A stretch of DNA of 64,000 nt from a bacterium (GCA_025782575.1 JALGYY010000043.1:62001-126000); one strand, 5' to 3'; positions 9,642 to 17,048 are shown, counted from the stretch's first letter. Notes: generated from the sequence alone by a model not told the origin. Program-made: numbers and translations.

Positions 9642-10607
9642 TCAGATCGGCCGACCGGACCAGGCGGCGAGGCGCTTAACGGTCACCTGGTTCTCCAGGG
9701 GGTCTCCTGTAATATAGTAGATCGCTGTTCGATTCCGCCGCCGATTCCAGCACATTTCACGCACTCCATCATCCGCCTCCATGCCGGCGGTCAGCATGGT
9801 CGCCGAAGGAGAACGAATTTCCTCCATTTGCAGGAGAAGCGAAAGACGACGAGAATCCTTCCAGCCGACGGCGTCCCGATCGTAGTAGATCGACACGTAC
9901 TGACTGTTCGGCGGCTTACCAGGCGGTCTCTCTTTGTCGATCGGGGGGACGGCGCCGCTCCAATTCTTCCATAGATCGTTCTCGATGCGAATCGCTCCTC
10001 CATCCTGGAGCAAGACGGTCGTTCGGCGGAGAGACTTTCCCGCCGGCCGCAGACGGTAGAGAACGTGGCCGGCCGGCCGGTCCGCGCATGGAACGAACAT
10101 CGAAATCAGCTCCCGACCATCCTTCCCTTTGTAGAGTTGAATCTCCTTCTTGTGAAGACTGATATCATCCCAGTCCGATCGAATGTGAATTCGAAAACGG
10201 AACAGACTGGAGGGGTCGTTGGAATCGCCCCTTCTGGTCACTGCCAGGATGAGAGGATTACCTTCCAGCCTTCCCAACCGGTATTCGACTGGATCGCACT
10301 GACGCCCCGGAATGACGACCACAGCCATACTGTTGCTCTCCGCTGCTTCACTCAGCCTCATACGAAGCCAGGAGGGGAATGGCTCTTTCTCCGTAAGAAC
10401 AAGAAAACGGACTGCGTCATGACCTGAAAGGACAAGGAAGTCGAACCAGGTCTCCGAATCCGCCTCCAGTCGGCTGAGCGCACCCTCGTAACCCTCCGGG
10501 ATCCGGAGCCCCTGATCGACTGCAGAGCGGAGCAGGGATCGACCGATCCAATCCCGCTCGGCACACGCTATCTCTCTCTTGCTTAAGGGTCGGTCCTTGG
10601 TTGTCAT
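9642..10607 (-). CDS. Protein of unknown function in the sigma54-peptide operon
   Basis: A 321-residue soluble protein that I do not recognise. It has no signal peptide, no long hydrophobic segment and no clear motif. It is rich in Arg and charged residues, with a mixed alpha/beta look and alternating strand-like patterns (FRFRIHIRSDW, TAIYYITGD). The ATG at 10607 overlaps the TGA of the upstream AAA-like gene (ATGA) and has AAGGA 4-5 nt before it, so translation is coupled. A start further upstream at 10649 would overlap that gene by 46 nt and is less likely. Its place as third gene of a predicted sigma54-controlled operon suggests that it works with the exported peptide or the degenerate activator, but no function can be assigned. 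Confidence 0.65.
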   Translation of the reverse strand: MTTKDRPLSKREIACAERDWIGRSLLRSAVDQGLRIPEGYEGALSRLEADSETWFDFLVLSGHDAVRFLVLTEKEPFPSWLRMRLSEAAESNSMAVVVIPGRQCDPVEYRLGRLEGNPLILAVTRRGDSNDPSSLFRFRIHIRSDWDDISLHKKEIQLYKGKDGRELISMFVPCADRPAGHVLYRLRPAGKSLRRTTVLLQDGGAIRIENDLWKNWSGAVPPIDKERPPGKPPNSQYVSIYYDRDAVGWKDSRRLSLLLQMEEIRSPSATMLTAGMEADDGVREMCWNRRRNRTAIYYITGDPLENQVTVKRLAAWSGRPI

Positions 10608-11221
10608 GTTGTCCTTAGTCGTACCGGGTAAAGGGGATCCACCTCCCATGCTTCCTGCCCGGGAACAAGGTATGTATCACTCGCGCCTACCGCTCCCCGG
10701 TGAGGGATGGGAATCGTCAAGGTGCTCAATCGAAGCCCGAGACCCCTATTGAAATCCCCTCGAGCGACCAGATCATCGAGGGATCTCCTCGCCGTGCTGA
10801 TCACGCGGAAGGGACTCCCATTCCGGGCTGAAGCGCCGGCGTCTTCAAGAAGATCGAGTATCCCGTTCTGAACCCAGGAGGTAAGCCGATCTACCCCCTC
10901 GATGATGATCGTCCTGCCGGTGTAAGAGGACTCCACTAAGGCGTCGATTCCGCTCTCGTTCAGCCGATCGCTGCACATGAGTCGGGCGGTCTCGCCGAGT
11001 CGGAGCTCCAGGTAACGGAGGCCGCTTGCCACATCTCCTGTCAGCAAAATGTTGGCCCGGCTCCGAAGAGCGTCCGCCAGCTTCCGGCCTGTTCCATACC
11101 AATCGTATTGCGGACAGGCCTGACTCCACCCCCGCGAGGCGTTCATTCCACAGGCATCGAACGGCGCATCGATCGCGCCCGCCCCCACCAATCGAATCCC
11201 CATGATCTCTGTCTTCATCAT
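10604..11221 (-). CDS. Degenerate sigma54-activator AAA+ domain protein (pseudo-ATPase)
   Basis: A 205-residue protein that aligns with the AAA+ domain of NtrC-type activators, including the one in the adjacent 1714-residue protein. The best match is about residues 138-175: FRVISTARRSLDDLVARGDF then LRLSTLTIPIPHR, against VRIIAATRWNLKMRIAKNQF then YRLARFTIEVPPLNR. Key motifs are lost. The Walker A place reads GDVASGLR (62-69) instead of GETGTGKE, the Walker B acids are missing (IIIEGVDR), and the region with the GAFTGA loop is deleted. The arginine finger region FREDLYYR reads FNRGLGLR. There is no HTH. I infer a non-catalytic modulator, perhaps one that interacts with the full activator. The ATG at 11221 follows AGAGG; it ends in an ATGA overlap with the next gene. 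Confidence 0.65.
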   Translation of the reverse strand: MMKTEIMGIRLVGAGAIDAPFDACGMNASRGWSQACPQYDWYGTGRKLADALRSRANILLTGDVASGLRYLELRLGETARLMCSDRLNESGIDALVESSYTGRTIIIEGVDRLTSWVQNGILDLLEDAGASARNGSPFRVISTARRSLDDLVARGDFNRGLGLRLSTLTIPIPHRGAVGASDTYLVPGQEAWEVDPLYPVRLRTT

Positions 11222-11307
11222 CCAACCTCTCTGACTGGTACAGTCGCGACCAGCCGGTAGAATACGCTCGTGGGGGAGCAGGATCTGATATCGGCTTCCG
11301 TACTCTC

Positions 11308-11547
11308 CTATGGGTGTGGGAAACCCGGATCTTCCGGCTCGGACTGGGATCCGCTCCCTCCCTGGGAACCGCCGCCCGTGCCATCTCCACTCTCATCCGC
11401 CCAGGCGGAGGCAACGGGGAAGGAGATGCCCGATTGATTGTCGTTGTCATGATTCCCGCGGAGCCCCACAGGGAAAACGGCCAGGATGAGCGTGAGAGTA
11501 AGTATGAGAACGATAGATCGAGCTCGTGCGCAGACACTTCCGGTCAT
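11308..11547 (-). CDS. Small exported Gly/Ser-rich peptide, sigma54-controlled
   Basis: A 79-residue protein. The N terminus has Arg residues (8 and 10) and a hydrophobic stretch, residues 11-29, typical of a signal peptide or membrane anchor. A second weakly hydrophobic part ends in ASAWA at 46-50, a possible cleavage site. The rest, residues 51-79, is acidic and rich in Gly, Ser and Gln, has no Cys and ends in DPGFPHP. The ATG at 11547 is supported by a strong AAGGAGGT 5 nt upstream. A sigma54 promoter lies about 45 nt before the start and three palindromic sites lie further upstream. It is the first gene of an operon with a degenerate activator and an unknown protein. Signal, adhesin or structural peptide are all possible; I cannot tell which. 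Confidence 0.7.
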   Translation of the reverse strand: MTGSVCARARSIVLILTLTLILAVFPVGLRGNHDNDNQSGISFPVASAWADESGDGTGGGSQGGSGSQSEPEDPGFPHP

Positions 11548-11589
11548 GGTTGACCTCCTTTGTGTGGTTGGACGATTACGGCATTCAAT

Positions 11590-11605
11590 TGCAATGACCG
11601 TGCGA
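11590..11605 (-). promoter_or_regulatory. Sigma54 (RpoN) promoter of the peptide operon
   Basis: On the minus strand the sequence reads TCGCACG-GTCA-TTGCA (11605-11590). The sigma54 consensus is TGGCACG-N4-TTGCW, so only one base of the -24 element differs. Transcription is expected near 11579, giving a leader of about 32 nt that contains AAGGAGGT before the ATG at 11547. Confidence 0.75.
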
Positions 11606-11687
11606 GCCGCCCCAAAAAGCGGCATAGTAACCCATTGATATTTACTATCTTACGACATTTCTAAAGTGATAATAGCACAAGAGAAGA

Positions 11688-11711
11688 GAATTCGTACTTT
11701 TGTACGAATTC
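11688..11711. promoter_or_regulatory. Activator site 1: perfect 10-bp-arm palindrome
   Basis: Arms GAATTCGTAC and GTACGAATTC flank TTTT. Its centre is about 120 bp upstream of the predicted sigma54 transcription start, the normal place for an enhancer-binding protein. The core TCGTAC-N4-GTACGA recurs at 11796 and 11817. Confidence 0.75.
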
Positions 11712-11795
11712 CGAATCAGAGTTGAGAGAGGGGATAGGATCCTAACTGATTATATTTAATAAAGTTAAGATCATTCGATCGGGAGATTCACTTAG

Positions 11796-11811
11796 TCGTA
11801 CATTTGTACGA
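11796..11811. promoter_or_regulatory. Activator site 2: TCGTAC-N4-GTACGA
   Basis: A perfect 6-bp-arm inverted repeat around ATTT. Its centre is 104 bp from site 1 and 21 bp from site 3, that is, close to whole numbers of helical turns, so bound dimers would lie on the same face of the DNA. Confidence 0.7.
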
Positions 11812-11816
11812 TCAAT

Positions 11817-11832
11817 TCGTACATTCGTACGA
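11817..11832. promoter_or_regulatory. Activator site 3: TCGTAC-N4-GTACGA
   Basis: A perfect 6-bp-arm inverted repeat around ATTC, 21 bp centre-to-centre from site 2, between the peptide promoter and the end of the kinase-activator gene. The likely ligand is the Fis-type HTH of that neighbouring protein. The rest of 11548-11903 is AT-rich and non-coding. Confidence 0.7.
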
Positions 11833-11903
11833 TCACGCACAATTCCCTGAAATCACAGAATATCACTCAGCAGGGCCACTCTCTGATAGGTGAAAACCCT
11901 TAA

Positions 11904-14900
11904 TCAGGAGCGATTGGGATCACGGTCGAGACCGTACTTACGCATCTTCTTTCGGATAGTCGCTTCATGAATGCCAAGCAGTCGGGCGGTCAGGGATTGA
12001 TTCCAGCTTGTCCTGCTGAGTGCGTTCTGGAGGAGCTGCCCCTCGAACTGCGCGACCGCTTCCGGGAGCGTGAGGCCTCTCCCTTTCCGAGCTCCGTCCG
12101 CATTGATAACCCATGCCTCGCGAACCGTATCGGGGAGATCGACCAGCTCGATCCGGGAGCCGCCACAAACGACAACAGCGCGCTCAATCGCATTCGCCAG
12201 CTCCCGTACATTCCCCGGCCAGTCGTAGACTCGCAGGCATCGGATCACCTCGTCTGACAAGGCGTCCACTCTTTTGTCGTTCTGACGGGAATAGAGGTCG
12301 AGAAAGTGCCTGGCCAGCAGGTCCACATCTTCAATCCGGCGATTGAGAGGAGGTACTTCAATAGTAAAACGGGCGAGCCGGTAATAGAGATCCTCTCTGA
12401 ACTGATTCTTCGCGATTCTCATCTTCAGGTTCCATCGGGTCGCCGCGATGATCCTGACGTCCACGCGTATTGTCTGTGTGCTCCCCAGTCTCTGGAACTC
12501 CCCCTCCTGCAGGACACGCAGAAGCTTCGGCTGCGCGGCAAGAGGAAGATCTCCGATCTCATCCAGGAAGAGTGTGCCGCCATCCAGCTTTTCGAAGTAG
12601 CCGATCTTTCTTTCTTTTGCGTCCGTGAACGCACCGGGCTCATGTCCGAACAGATGAGACTCAATCAACTCCGTCGGCAGAGCCGCGATATTCAGTTTAT
12701 CGAACGGAGTCTCGCTCCGTGCGCTTTTCTCATGAATCAGACGAGCCACGAGTTCCTTCCCCGTTCCCGTCTCCCCTTCGATCAGGACCGAAATATCGCT
12801 CGTTGCCGCCCGAATCGATTTTTCCACCACGCTATTGATCGCCGCGCTCCGCCCGACGATCTCTCCGGGCTTCGTTCCGGAAGTGACCTCCCGCCGAAGA
12901 TCGGCGTTCTCCTGCTCCAGGTCTTCCATCAAGCGAGCGTTCTTGATAGCAAGAGTGGTCTGATCGGCCAGTGCGCGAAGAAAGAGTTTATCCGGTTCGT
13001 GAAATACACCCGCACGGTGACAATTGTCCAGATAGATCACACCGATCGGTTCACCCCTGAATTGAAGCGGCGCGGTGATCACAGACAAAATATTATAGGC
13101 ATCAATACTTTTTGTCTTCTTCAAACGACGATCGGTCCCCGTGTCGTCGAAGACGATCGGGACAGATGATCGCTGGGACTCGAGAAGAAGGGTCTTGCTG
13201 AATCGAGTGACGTCATCGAGATCTCCCCCCTCCAGAGACCGGGCTACCTTCATTTCGAGGCCACCGTCGGCAGTCTGCAGCAGGATAAGCCCGCGGTCCG
13301 CCCCCAGATACTCCACGGCCTTGTCCAGAACGAATTCCAGAATCTTCTGAGAATCACGAAGCGTATTGATCCCCTCCGCAATCCGGCAGATCAAGCGGAA
13401 TGCCTCCCCCATCCCATCGGACTGGGGCGAAACGGCCGCGATCAGTTCAGGCAGGAAAGCAGGAGGAGAGGCGTATCTCACAAGCCCGTAGAGCCGCTTC
13501 GCTTCTTCGATGTGACGCTTGGCCTTCCGCCGTTCTCCCCGGCGGAGGGAGACCGCCCCATAGTAGGAATGGGCGAGAGCGCGATCAATCCGCGCACCGA
13601 GCTTGGTAAAGATCCGGACAGCATTCTGAAAATGCCGGGCCTCCGCCTCGTTCCGCCGTTTGCCGTCACAGGCGCGGCCGTGAAGCATCGCCAGCCTGCC
13701 GCTCAGGAGGGGATTACGCTGTCGCTTGGCGAGTCGATCAAGCTCATCGAGTTTTTCCCGAGCCTCCCCGCTCCTGTTCCGGTTGAGAGCGCTTTCCGCT
13801 TGAAGGAGAAGAATTTCAGCCATGTTGATCTTCTCCTCCCCCTCCCTCGCAATCTCCATGGCACGGCCAAGAGTCTCCTCCACTTCATGCCACTGGCGGT
13901 TCAACTGGTGATAGCGTCCGAGTTGAATGAGCGCGTAGCCCTTCAGCCGGTCACCGGGAGCTGAATCCGCAATCGCCTTCCCTTCGGAGAGTACGTCGTG
14001 AGCCGACTGCATCTCGCCGCGCGCCATATGACAACGGGCGAGTACCATCAGCCCGCCGAACCGGATCTGAGGATGGGCACCGGCGCGATTCGCCTCGATC
14101 ACCGCGCGATCCGCCAGACGAAGCGCCTCGTCGAGTCGCCCGCGATCGATCGCCATCTGGCTCCGGCCGATATAGACTCGAAGACTTCTGCTCTCTTCCC
14201 CATACTCCCGGTAGGTCCTCTCGGCCTGCGTGAAAGCACGTTCGGCATCCCCCCATTCGCCAAGCCGATGAAGAAGACCCGCAAGATCCTCCTGGATTCT
14301 CCCCTCTTCAAGTATATCGCTCGATTGTGCAGCCAGGCCGGACGCCTTCCGAAGAAGAGCCGCCGCCTTGTCGAGATTATCGCGGGACCGGGCGATCAGG
14401 GCGAGATTCGAAAGCGGAGAAGGCGTTTCAGATGGGTGGCTTTTTTCCAGCGCTCGGAGAGACCGACGAAAACAACTCTCCGCGTTCTTCAGCTCTCCCC
14501 GCAGGAACAGGGCACCTCCCATGCGATTGTAGATCTGCCCTCGGAGGAGGGGCTCTTTCTTTCCTTTCAGAAGAGCGAGAGCCCGTTCGAGATCCCTCCA
14601 CGCCTCTTCATAGTTTCCGCTGCGCATGACGACCCAGCTCCGATCACGGAGAACAGTGGCCCACTCACTTGCAGGAACCGCCGTTTCATGCCTTCTCAAT
14701 CGACTGAAAATCCGCTCCGCATCCTGGACTCGCCCCATCTGAAAGAGAATCCAACCTCGCAGGCGTTCTCCACGCACGAGAAAGGTGATCTCTCTTTGAC
14801 GACCGGCCAGCTTGAGGGCGAGCAAACGGAGAGCGGCAAGGGCCGCCCGGGACTCACCGATCCGATTGCGGACGAGTGCCAGGCGATAAAGAACCAGGCT

Positions 14901-17048
14901 GTGCGCGTGAGTCGGGATTCGACCCTGCCCGAGCCGAATCACCCTTCGATAAACATCGGCCGCGTCGGAAAATGCGTAAAGCTCTTCGAACTCCTGAGCA
15001 CCCTCAATGTACTTCTGGCATGCGGAGGCAATGGAGCCGACTTTTTCCAGGTGGTGCGCGGTGACCATAAGGGCACCGGGAACACCTTTCCTCTCTCCTT
15101 CCCGAGATAGCCGGGAAGCCAGCTTATGGATTCGTGTGAGTTCATCCTGCGAGACGGCACCCGTCAGGCCGGCGCGAATCTCTTCTGACCTCGGGAGGAA
15201 GACGTCCCCCTCGTTCCCGCTTTCGATTGATACCAGCAGCCGGTCTACGAGGGGTCGGATCGCCCTTGTCCAATCCATATCGGAGATCTTGAGAAGCCGG
15301 CGTAGATGGGGTCCTGTAACCGGCGCGGGGGCCGATGCGATCGCCGCTGCGAGCAGCCTCTCCGTAGGATCGAGTTCGCCCAGAGGAATCGAACGATTCT
15401 CGTCTGTAATCGGCGGAGTATCCTCCACCTTTTTAGAGAGCGAAAATGTGTCATAGCGACGACGAATTGCCCCGCGCTTCACCCACTCATGAACGAGAAG
15501 AGACAGTCGGGAAGGGAGGCGGCCGGAGATCCGGGACGCCTGCCGAATCAATTCCGGGCTGAACTCACCCGGCCCGAGCATCCCTCGGAGATACTGATAA
15601 ACCTCTTCTTCGCTGAATCGGGAGAGAGGAGCGATCTGCACGAGCCCGCGCAAGTGGAACGGCTCGAGTACGCTTGGGATCGCCCCGTTCTCCGGACGGA
15701 GGGTCGAAAGAACCAACCGGAGCGGTCCCGGCCTTTCCCTGTCCAATAGAAAGCGAAGAAATCGGCGAGAGGAACGATCGAGATGCTCATAGTCATCGAC
15801 AATGAGAAGGGCGGGGCGATCGGATCTGTCGCCGGCATCGGCAAGGATCTTGAGAAGCGAGTCTTCAATGTTGCGGAACAGGGCGACTTCCTCGCCTCGT
15901 GTACCCCGCTTTTCTTCACTGACCTCCCCCCCGTGGGGGAGAAAACAACGCACATCCCAACTCGACACCCCGTCGGTCAGCATGTTTACCAGGAGACTGA
16001 GGCCACCATAGGGCCGACTTTCCCGTGATGCGGGAACGGCAAGGGCATAAACCGTCGAGCCCGCGAGCCGCTCGGTCGTCGCGAGCAACTGGAGCAGGCG
16101 ACTCCGTCCGGAACCACGCTCCCCCGTCACTGCGAAGACGGGCGAAGCTGCTTCCTGGCGCCAGGCATCGAACTGTTCAATTACAGATTCCCGCCCGACG
16201 AAATGGGGTGCCGGCGGGACCGCGACTCTCCGGCGCCGCCACTCCTTCCCGGTCAGATCGCTGAGCACGTCGATCGCGCTTTGCGGACGGTCAGCCGGGC
16301 TCTTCTGCAGCATTTTCTCGATCGTCAACCACCAGAGTTTCGGGACGTCCTTCGGGACATCTTCCCAATCGGGGATTTCGTCAAGGTGGCGGCGGGCGAT
16401 CTCCGTGGCCTCCCCGGTAAAGGGTACAGAGCCCCGCAGAAACTCGTAAAATGTGATCCCGAGTGAGTAGAGGTCTGTACGATGATCGGCGCTCTGTCCG
16501 CGAATCGTCTCCGGCGCCATGTACTCGAGTGTCCCGGTGATCGTGCCGAACCGATCGGCCTTCCCGAAAAGGGGTGGCAGGAAATCAGTCAACTGAAGCT
16601 CGAGGATTTCCTCCCCCTCTGCCTGAAAGAGAATATTCTCCGGCTTGATATCGCCGTGCAGGAACCCACGCTCATGAAGAAACGCCACCGCCTCACAGAG
16701 CTTCTCGGCTACCGGTAGAAAACGGCGGACCGGATCAGCGGATACCCATTCTTCTATTCGTTGACTATCCACGTATGGAGATGATGCATAGAGCACACCC
16801 TCAGGTGTTTGCCCGCACTCCAGAATGGGTGATATGCCCGGATGCTGTAACTGACTCCGAAGAACGGACTCCTCTCGGAATCGGTTTTTCATCCGCTCCG
16901 GCGCATGGCGGGAAATCAGTTTGAGTACGACCTGCCGCTCAGGATCGTCCCTTCGGCTGGCCACGACCACGACACGGTGATCCCCCTCAGCGAGCAGATC
17001 GCCCATCTTGTATGATCGGGGGGGGGTGGGTCGCGATCGAACTCCCAT
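11904..17048 (-). CDS. Ser/Thr kinase - AAA ATPase - TPR - GAF - sigma54 activator - Fis HTH fusion
   Basis: A 1714-residue signal-integrating regulator. Residues about 10-265 are a protein kinase: Lys43 in VVLKL, HGDIKPEN at 131-138, Asp155 in DFL, APE at 178-180, Asp192. The catalytic residues remain, but HRD is HGD, DFG is DFL and the Gly-rich loop is degenerate. Residues about 283-560 are an AAA_16-like ATPase (GERGSGRS near 309, LLIVDD). TPRs follow to about 1180, then a GAF domain (about 1225-1390). The sigma54 AAA+ domain starts near 1396, with Walker A GETGTGKE at 1425-1432, GAFTDA in place of GAFTGA at 1472-1477, and LFLDEIGD. A Fis-type HTH ends the protein (about 1660-1714). The ATG at 17048 follows GAGAGG. 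It probably activates the adjacent peptide operon through sigma54. Confidence 0.88.
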   Translation of the reverse strand: MGVRSRPTPPRSYKMGDLLAEGDHRVVVVASRRDDPERQVVLKLISRHAPERMKNRFREESVLRSQLQHPGISPILECGQTPEGVLYASSPYVDSQRIEEWVSADPVRRFLPVAEKLCEAVAFLHERGFLHGDIKPENILFQAEGEEILELQLTDFLPPLFGKADRFGTITGTLEYMAPETIRGQSADHRTDLYSLGITFYEFLRGSVPFTGEATEIARRHLDEIPDWEDVPKDVPKLWWLTIEKMLQKSPADRPQSAIDVLSDLTGKEWRRRRVAVPPAPHFVGRESVIEQFDAWRQEAASPVFAVTGERGSGRSRLLQLLATTERLAGSTVYALAVPASRESRPYGGLSLLVNMLTDGVSSWDVRCFLPHGGEVSEEKRGTRGEEVALFRNIEDSLLKILADAGDRSDRPALLIVDDYEHLDRSSRRFLRFLLDRERPGPLRLVLSTLRPENGAIPSVLEPFHLRGLVQIAPLSRFSEEEVYQYLRGMLGPGEFSPELIRQASRISGRLPSRLSLLVHEWVKRGAIRRRYDTFSLSKKVEDTPPITDENRSIPLGELDPTERLLAAAIASAPAPVTGPHLRRLLKISDMDWTRAIRPLVDRLLVSIESGNEGDVFLPRSEEIRAGLTGAVSQDELTRIHKLASRLSREGERKGVPGALMVTAHHLEKVGSIASACQKYIEGAQEFEELYAFSDAADVYRRVIRLGQGRIPTHAHSLVLYRLALVRNRIGESRAALAALRLLALKLAGRQREITFLVRGERLRGWILFQMGRVQDAERIFSRLRRHETAVPASEWATVLRDRSWVVMRSGNYEEAWRDLERALALLKGKKEPLLRGQIYNRMGGALFLRGELKNAESCFRRSLRALEKSHPSETPSPLSNLALIARSRDNLDKAAALLRKASGLAAQSSDILEEGRIQEDLAGLLHRLGEWGDAERAFTQAERTYREYGEESRSLRVYIGRSQMAIDRGRLDEALRLADRAVIEANRAGAHPQIRFGGLMVLARCHMARGEMQSAHDVLSEGKAIADSAPGDRLKGYALIQLGRYHQLNRQWHEVEETLGRAMEIAREGEEKINMAEILLLQAESALNRNRSGEAREKLDELDRLAKRQRNPLLSGRLAMLHGRACDGKRRNEAEARHFQNAVRIFTKLGARIDRALAHSYYGAVSLRRGERRKAKRHIEEAKRLYGLVRYASPPAFLPELIAAVSPQSDGMGEAFRLICRIAEGINTLRDSQKILEFVLDKAVEYLGADRGLILLQTADGGLEMKVARSLEGGDLDDVTRFSKTLLLESQRSSVPIVFDDTGTDRRLKKTKSIDAYNILSVITAPLQFRGEPIGVIYLDNCHRAGVFHEPDKLFLRALADQTTLAIKNARLMEDLEQENADLRREVTSGTKPGEIVGRSAAINSVVEKSIRAATSDISVLIEGETGTGKELVARLIHEKSARSETPFDKLNIAALPTELIESHLFGHEPGAFTDAKERKIGYFEKLDGGTLFLDEIGDLPLAAQPKLLRVLQEGEFQRLGSTQTIRVDVRIIAATRWNLKMRIAKNQFREDLYYRLARFTIEVPPLNRRIEDVDLLARHFLDLYSRQNDKRVDALSDEVIRCLRVYDWPGNVRELANAIERAVVVCGGSRIELVDLPDTVREAWVINADGARKGRGLTLPEAVAQFEGQLLQNALSRTSWNQSLTARLLGIHEATIRKKMRKYGLDRDPNRS

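Follow-up and report, generated by a model that had tools for sequence, protein, structure and literature searches.

Genomic organization of the locus

Analysis of a 64,000-nucleotide stretch of bacterial DNA (GCA_025782575.1, JALGYY010000043.1:62001-126000; hereafter the window, part of G000:C46 in a 4.88-Mb draft genome) identified a locus at positions 9,642 to 17,048 in which the gene of a very large regulator of the bacterial enhancer-binding protein (bEBP) type is followed by three palindromes, candidate upstream activating sites (UAS), by a variant -24/-12 promoter element and by an operon for a small, predicted exported peptide, a degenerate AAA+ protein (pseudo-AAA+) and a third protein (Table 1). 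Because this arrangement is kept across four genera, comparison of the sequences argues that the locus is a real regulatory unit and apparently an undescribed one; a literature search found no description of such a system.

Table 1 Features of the locus, with positions counted from the first letter of the window.
Feature	Position	Strand	Basis
Regulator, 1714 aa: Ser/Thr kinase, AAA_16 ATPase, TPR, GAF, sigma54 AAA+ with lid, Fis helix-turn-helix (HTH)	11904..17048	-	Translation, Pfam, orthologs in five other genomes
Kinase domain of regulator, residues 21-256	16281..16988	-	Translation, Pfam, ortholog comparison
TPR region of regulator, about residues 700-1190, candidate sensor	13479..14951	-	Pfam TPR_12, TPR_MalT
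sigma54 AAA+ core of regulator, residues 1397-1564, L1 loop GAFTDA	12357..12860	-	Pfam, ortholog comparison
Fis-type HTH of regulator, recognition helix LGIHEATIRKK	11934..12056	-	Pfam, orthologs
Palindrome 1, distal candidate UAS, TCGTACATTCGTACGA	11817..11832	.	Genome pattern search
Palindrome 2, candidate UAS, TCGTACATTTGTACGA	11796..11811	.	Genome pattern search
Palindrome 3, proximal candidate UAS, 152 bp from peptide ATG (163-175 bp in relatives), TCGTACTTTTGTACGA	11692..11707	.	Genome pattern search
-24/-12 promoter element CTCGCACGGTCATTGCA, C replacing G at -25; predicted transcription start 11579	11590..11606	-	Locus comparison
Predicted exported peptide, 79 aa: basic N-terminus, hydrophobic segment, Gly/Ser-rich linker, C-terminus DPGFPHP	11308..11547	-	Translation, homolog comparison
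Conserved C-terminal heptapeptide DPxxPHP plus stop	11308..11331	-	One per genome, this locus only
Pseudo-AAA+ protein, 205 aa, bEBP AAA+ core	10604..11221	-	Pfam, homolog alignment, AlphaFold
Accessory protein, family without assignment, 321 aa from an ATG overlapping the previous stop	9642..10607	-	Homolog only in G002

The searched set includes seven genomes of the phylum, and the comparison has a depth of five loci in four genera, mostly from draft assemblies. Orthologs of the regulator were found in G002, G003, G004, G005 and G006, with 33-51% identity to the window protein, and the order regulator, palindromes, peptide, pseudo-AAA+ is identical in five loci (window, G002, G003, G004 and G006). 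G002 and G005 belong to one genus (g3); G004 and G006 also share a genus, and the five loci therefore represent four independent lineages. Named records carrying the locus bear the labels ‘Candidatus Eisenbacteria bacterium OFTM309’ and ‘Gemmatimonadetes bacterium DeMMO4_6’. A sixth locus (G005) is truncated by a contig end within the regulator gene, and G001 is without regulator ortholog, peptide, pseudo-AAA+ and palindromes. A first-pass annotation of the window had set conservation of the gene order and of the palindrome motif in related genomes beforehand as its test, and both are conserved in the four genera. Few genomes of the phylum are available for comparison, which leaves some room for a chance neighbourhood of unrelated genes; this explanation is nonetheless extremely improbable and is refuted by the persistence of order, sites, promoter and peptide tail at 34-51% regulator identity and, wherever contigs are intact, by the co-occurrence or joint absence of regulator, peptide and pseudo-AAA+. 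As far as these searches reach, neither the peptide family nor the pseudo-AAA+ protein was seen outside this phylum. The idea that every TPR-sigma54 regulator of the genome has such a peptide was rejected, as shorter paralogs (about 1000-1050 aa) have neither a peptide nor these sites.

Regulator and palindromic sites

The first-pass annotation had read the regulator as a 1714-residue kinase-ATPase-TPR-GAF-sigma54 AAA+-Fis protein. Translation agrees, as does Pfam, which assigns Pkinase, AAA_16, TPR, GAF, Sigma54_activat, AAA lid and HTH_8 domains to the window protein. The AAA+ core has the features of a sigma54 activator, with GETGTGKE as Walker A, LFLDE as Walker B and GAFTDA as the L1 loop. 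In the kinase domain HGDxKPxN is kept, with HGD for HRD and DFL for DFG; the active-site Lys, Asp and Asn are intact and predicted activity is uncertain. PADLOC matches of the regulator (PD-T4-6, RtcR) were set aside as generic similarity of kinase and AAA+ domains, and neither the second nor the third operon gene has a PADLOC match.

Three palindromes had been placed just past the regulator gene in the same annotation, and exact TCGTAC-N4-GTACGA proved to occur in three copies in the whole window genome, all at this locus (reversed-pattern control, 0). Because palindromes with one mismatch lie at background (13 versus 15 in the control), the three exact copies are the only signal in that genome and a larger regulon is unsupported there. 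The family consensus is TCGTAY-N4-RTACGA, with two or three palindromes per locus: they are exact in G000, in G002 (TCGTATCTGCATACGA and TCGTATGAACGTACGA) and in G004 and G006 (TCGTACGATCGTACGA, twice), and G003 has two copies with one mismatch each. The centre of the proximal palindrome lies 152-175 bp upstream of the peptide ATG in all five loci, so that, by position, the HTH and its predicted UAS show the layout of an enhancer-binding protein, whose sites lie about 100-200 bp upstream of the target promoter. As judged from the alignments, the recognition helix is conserved together with the palindrome, reading LGIHE[AS]T[IV]RKK in the window, G002, G004 and G006 (LGIHESTVRKK in the relatives) and LGVHESTVRKK in G003 (L026). 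By these features the regulator is a predicted sigma54 enhancer-binding protein with one detectable target in the window genome.

Other exact matches to TCGTAYN4RTACGA, in G000 C2, G002 C3 and C6, and G005 C305, fall within open frames and look like chance occurrences. G006 holds a second pair of exact TCGTAC-N4-GTACGA sites (L139, G006:C94, 7353-7501; spacing 133 bp) upstream of three exported proteins, one of which combines a weak Peptidase_C25 match with FlgD_ig/Por_Secre_tail-like domains at its C-terminus.

Promoter element and sigma54

The consensus sigma54 promoter is TGGCAYG-N4-TTGC, with GG at -25/-24, GC at -13/-12 and a near-invariant G at -25. The first-pass annotation had described a near-consensus sigma54 promoter at the locus. 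A -24/-12-like element is present there, but it is not plain consensus, because the G at -25 is replaced by C, giving dinucleotides CG-N10-GC instead of GG-N10-GC. The form CGCACG-N4-YTGC, with C at -25, is common to the window and relatives L024, L025 and L026, that is, to three genera, and lies 57-79 bp upstream of the peptide ATG in these four loci. Counting either strand, the window has a single copy, where it is expected, and 146 kb of paralog loci, searched on both strands, have none; in shuffled intergenic regions of the four loci the element arose in at most 8 of 20,000. Canonical TGGCAYG-N4-TTGC elements are present elsewhere in the phylum's genomes, and RpoN is encoded in all seven.

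Genus g3 departs from this pattern. The variant is absent from the G002 locus (L027), where no recognisable -24/-12 element was found, and the L1 loop of the g3 regulators reads RTGGPDG (G002, L027) or RAGGRDG (G005, L113) in place of GAFTGA. Walker motifs persist in both (L027, L113), and G002 also retains HTH, palindromes and peptide. The joint loss of promoter element and GAFTGA loop is what one would predict if this promoter is the regulator's point of action, and the genus g3 activator has apparently left sigma54 with the rest of the locus kept; it thus looks like a natural example of such a departure.

The same observations bear on a different reading, in which the palindrome-bound regulator dispenses with sigma54 and works either through sigma70 polymerase or by repression, the -24/-12 element being incidental or a relict. 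The g3 regulators, which lack both loop and element yet are accompanied by palindromes, peptide and pseudo-AAA+, would fit it, as would the G at -25 missing in all loci. We nevertheless regard it as improbable, since the window, G003, G004 and G006 have both an L1 loop (GAFTDA, with the form GAFSGA also seen) and CGCACG-N4-YTGC, an element far above chance.

Co-evolution of the GAFTDA loop with the -25 C promoter was also considered and rejected: Asp stands at that place in 6 of the 21 enhancer-binding proteins of the window genome, so the loop is not tied to the odd promoter, and downstream of one Asp-bearing activator (L030) lies a canonical promoter. For this reason the bypass phenotype of NorR G266D (PMC2941729) serves here as background only.

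A predicted exported peptide

The operon had been predicted to begin with a small exported peptide, and a 79-aa gene is present, preceded by a Shine-Dalgarno GGAGG at 11554-11558. Directly after the regulator gene, all five loci encode peptides of 72-79 aa with a basic start, a hydrophobic segment and a Gly-rich or acidic stretch, features from which export is predicted, and all five end in DPxxPHP. A genome-wide pattern search found this tail once each in G000, G002, G003 and G004, always at this locus (control, 0). Third codon positions and stop codons of the tail differ between genera; therefore, selection acts on the peptide as a protein. The DPxxPHP tail is best explained as the functional part of the peptide, within a reading of the locus that we hold, as a whole, to be evenly poised.

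Pseudo-AAA+ protein and third gene

The second product, described in the first-pass annotation as a degenerate sigma54-activator AAA+ protein, bears this description out. It matches Sigma54_activ_2 (Pfam, E 6e-7), and an AlphaFold 2 model built from a five-sequence alignment (mean predicted local distance difference test score, pLDDT, 64; core blocks mostly 74-92) has a core best matched by the AAA+ domains of ZraR, FlrC, NtrX and PspF, so that the protein is modelled with an AAA+ fold of the sigma54-activator type. The Walker A Lys, the Walker B Asp-Glu, the GAFTGA segment and the lid are all missing in five of five homologs, in which the last Arg of a LYYRL-type motif is invariant. ATP hydrolysis or sigma54 contact therefore seems hardly possible; devoid of ATPase motifs, L1 loop, lid and HTH, the protein could play no more than a passive or inhibitory part, presumably as a ring subunit. 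Candidate relatives in Fibrobacteres, Thermodesulfovibrionales and Desulfobacterium (L095-L097) proved to be ordinary full-length activators.

The third protein, by contrast with its earlier placement in the system, lies outside the conserved core because it is absent from this place in G003, G004 and G006, where a histidine kinase (G003) or a response regulator and a small HTH protein (G004, G006) are found. Genes in this third place are, by this comparison, accessories. The window protein most likely starts at 10607, its ATGA overlapping the stop of gene 2; its G002 homolog has 25% identity to it, and its structure model is of low confidence (mean pLDDT 56) with no usable fold match.

A model for the locus and its relation to known systems

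The best explanation as a whole, for which we see about an even chance, is a self-contained regulatory locus of one small phylum with the peptide tail as feedback signal. The comparison establishes the gene order, the near-unique sites, the promoter element, the conservation of the peptide tail and the motif loss in the pseudo-AAA+ protein; DNA binding, activation, export, signalling and feedback are inferences. The Fis-type HTH would bind the palindromes as UAS and the regulator AAA+ ring would open RNA polymerase-sigma54 at the variant element, so that, most likely, the regulator activates the peptide operon via sigma54. The operon for peptide and pseudo-AAA+ protein would then be transcribed and the peptide exported, with DPxxPHP as its working part; the tail, in the role we think most likely, would act back on the TPR region as a positive-feedback signal, and the pseudo-AAA+ protein would tune the regulator ring. 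The first-pass annotation had also joined all parts in one circuit: order, palindromes and promoter are kept in relatives, whereas the third gene is not conserved and the sigma54 link is apparently lost in genus g3. The second product, whose degeneracy is real, might feed back on the regulator, as that annotation had suggested.

The steps of this mechanism have precedents, which make them plausible without amounting to proof. NorR has several enhancer sites between the regulator gene and its target (PMC2941729); NorR at norVW shares with this locus the C-terminal GAF-AAA+-Fis order, multiple palindromic sites (three in NorR) and, in variant form, a -24/-12 promoter element. To this the regulator described here adds a Ser/Thr kinase at the N-terminus, an AAA_16 ATPase and an extended TPR region; its predicted target is a putatively exported peptide with a pseudo-AAA+ protein, and its promoter element is without G at -25. 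HrpR/HrpS form mixed activator subunits (PMC7057263), and these and other mixed or AAA-only bEBP assemblies share a second bEBP-type AAA+ protein beside the main one; unlike theirs, the second protein here has no ATPase motifs, L1 loop, lid or HTH, and would be an unusual way of tuning an enhancer-binding protein.

For the signalling step the closest parallel is the RRNPP family (Rap-Phr, PlcR-PapR, NprR-NprX), defined by a TPR receptor of about 250-500 aa and an adjacent small propeptide exported by Sec, whose mature form binds the TPRs once re-imported (PMC10075063). The layout is shared, with a TPR-bearing candidate receptor gene directly before that of a small, predicted exported propeptide whose C-terminal ~7 residues are conserved, and by this analogy the peptide may be a signal read back by the TPR domain. 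The receptor here, known from sequence, has 1714 rather than 250-500 aa and carries a Fis HTH, a kinase and a sigma54 AAA+ domain, and the host is not of the Bacillota. The locus is thus not an RRNPP member by definition (receptor size, phylum), although it may work that way. The fully elaborated version, autoinduction outside Bacillota in which DPxxPHP is released, imported and bound by the TPRs, the operon is amplified and a dead AAA+ paralog limits the activator ring, we consider unlikely. Should the peptide prove to be a signal, quorum sensing by peptides and TPR receptors would extend to sigma54 control.

A circuit without feedback, in which another cue arriving via kinase, TPR or GAF turns on an exported surface, effector or envelope peptide, falls somewhat short of an even chance and ranks nearly as likely as peptide feedback. 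TPR-bEBPs of other lineages precede sigma54 promoters of varied exported proteins (L166, L168, paralogs in G142/G279), in G006 the same palindrome pair additionally precedes a series of exported proteins, and PEP-CTERM genes are a known sigma54-driven exported product (PMC9850573). However, a tiny peptide strictly conserved only in a free C-terminal heptapeptide resembles a processed ligand more than a structural protein, and the window regulator appears to serve this operon alone. The PEP-CTERM genes, with PrsK-PrsR and RpoN, would share a sigma54-driven exported protein with a conserved C-terminal motif; here there is no PEP-CTERM anchor and no two-component pair, and one giant regulator stands instead.

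Several points weigh against the feedback model. The C at -25 should weaken sigma54 binding, and sigma54 dependence is, on present comparisons, not universal, because genus g3, in which no recognisable -24/-12 element was found, still has peptide, pseudo-AAA+ and sites. Among the possible inputs (kinase, ATPase-TPR, GAF) the TPR region is only one, and its binding of the peptide is argued by analogy; looser versions elsewhere drive exported proteins unlike signals; the binding and activation steps are read from sequence; and the conservation is that of five loci from four genera, mostly in draft assemblies. Among bEBP-controlled loci this one is a variant form, and the chance that it represents a new peptide-signalling system, although unproven, is substantial. 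With it, an uncultured, little-known phylum gains a regulatory unit that is conserved and apparently undescribed, together with a family of peptides marked by a strict C-terminal signature.

Looser versions in other lineages

Similar regulators precede sigma54 promoters and exported products in other lineages, with palindromes and products unrelated to those of this locus. In G142 (L168, G142:C35, 5479-6314), a 1765-aa kinase-TPR-GAF-sigma54 regulator is followed by TGTAAA-type palindromes, a canonical sigma54 promoter (CTGGCATATCAATTGC), an 80-aa exported peptide and a 78-aa Fis-like protein; in G107, a similar regulator is followed by a sigma54 promoter (TGGCACAGGTCTTGC) and a large exported protein. 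Downstream of TPR-sigma54 regulators at L184, L185, L197 and L202 (G142, G279), canonical sigma54 promoters precede a conserved and apparently structured leader (TCTCCGCTTGTCCG...GCGGAGAT) and near-identical hairpins (e.g., TGGCAGAACCCCGGTTCTGCCA). No Rfam family matches the leader in L184, L197 or L202, the three searched (L185 was not), and the leaders of L184 and L197 run on into exported proteins.

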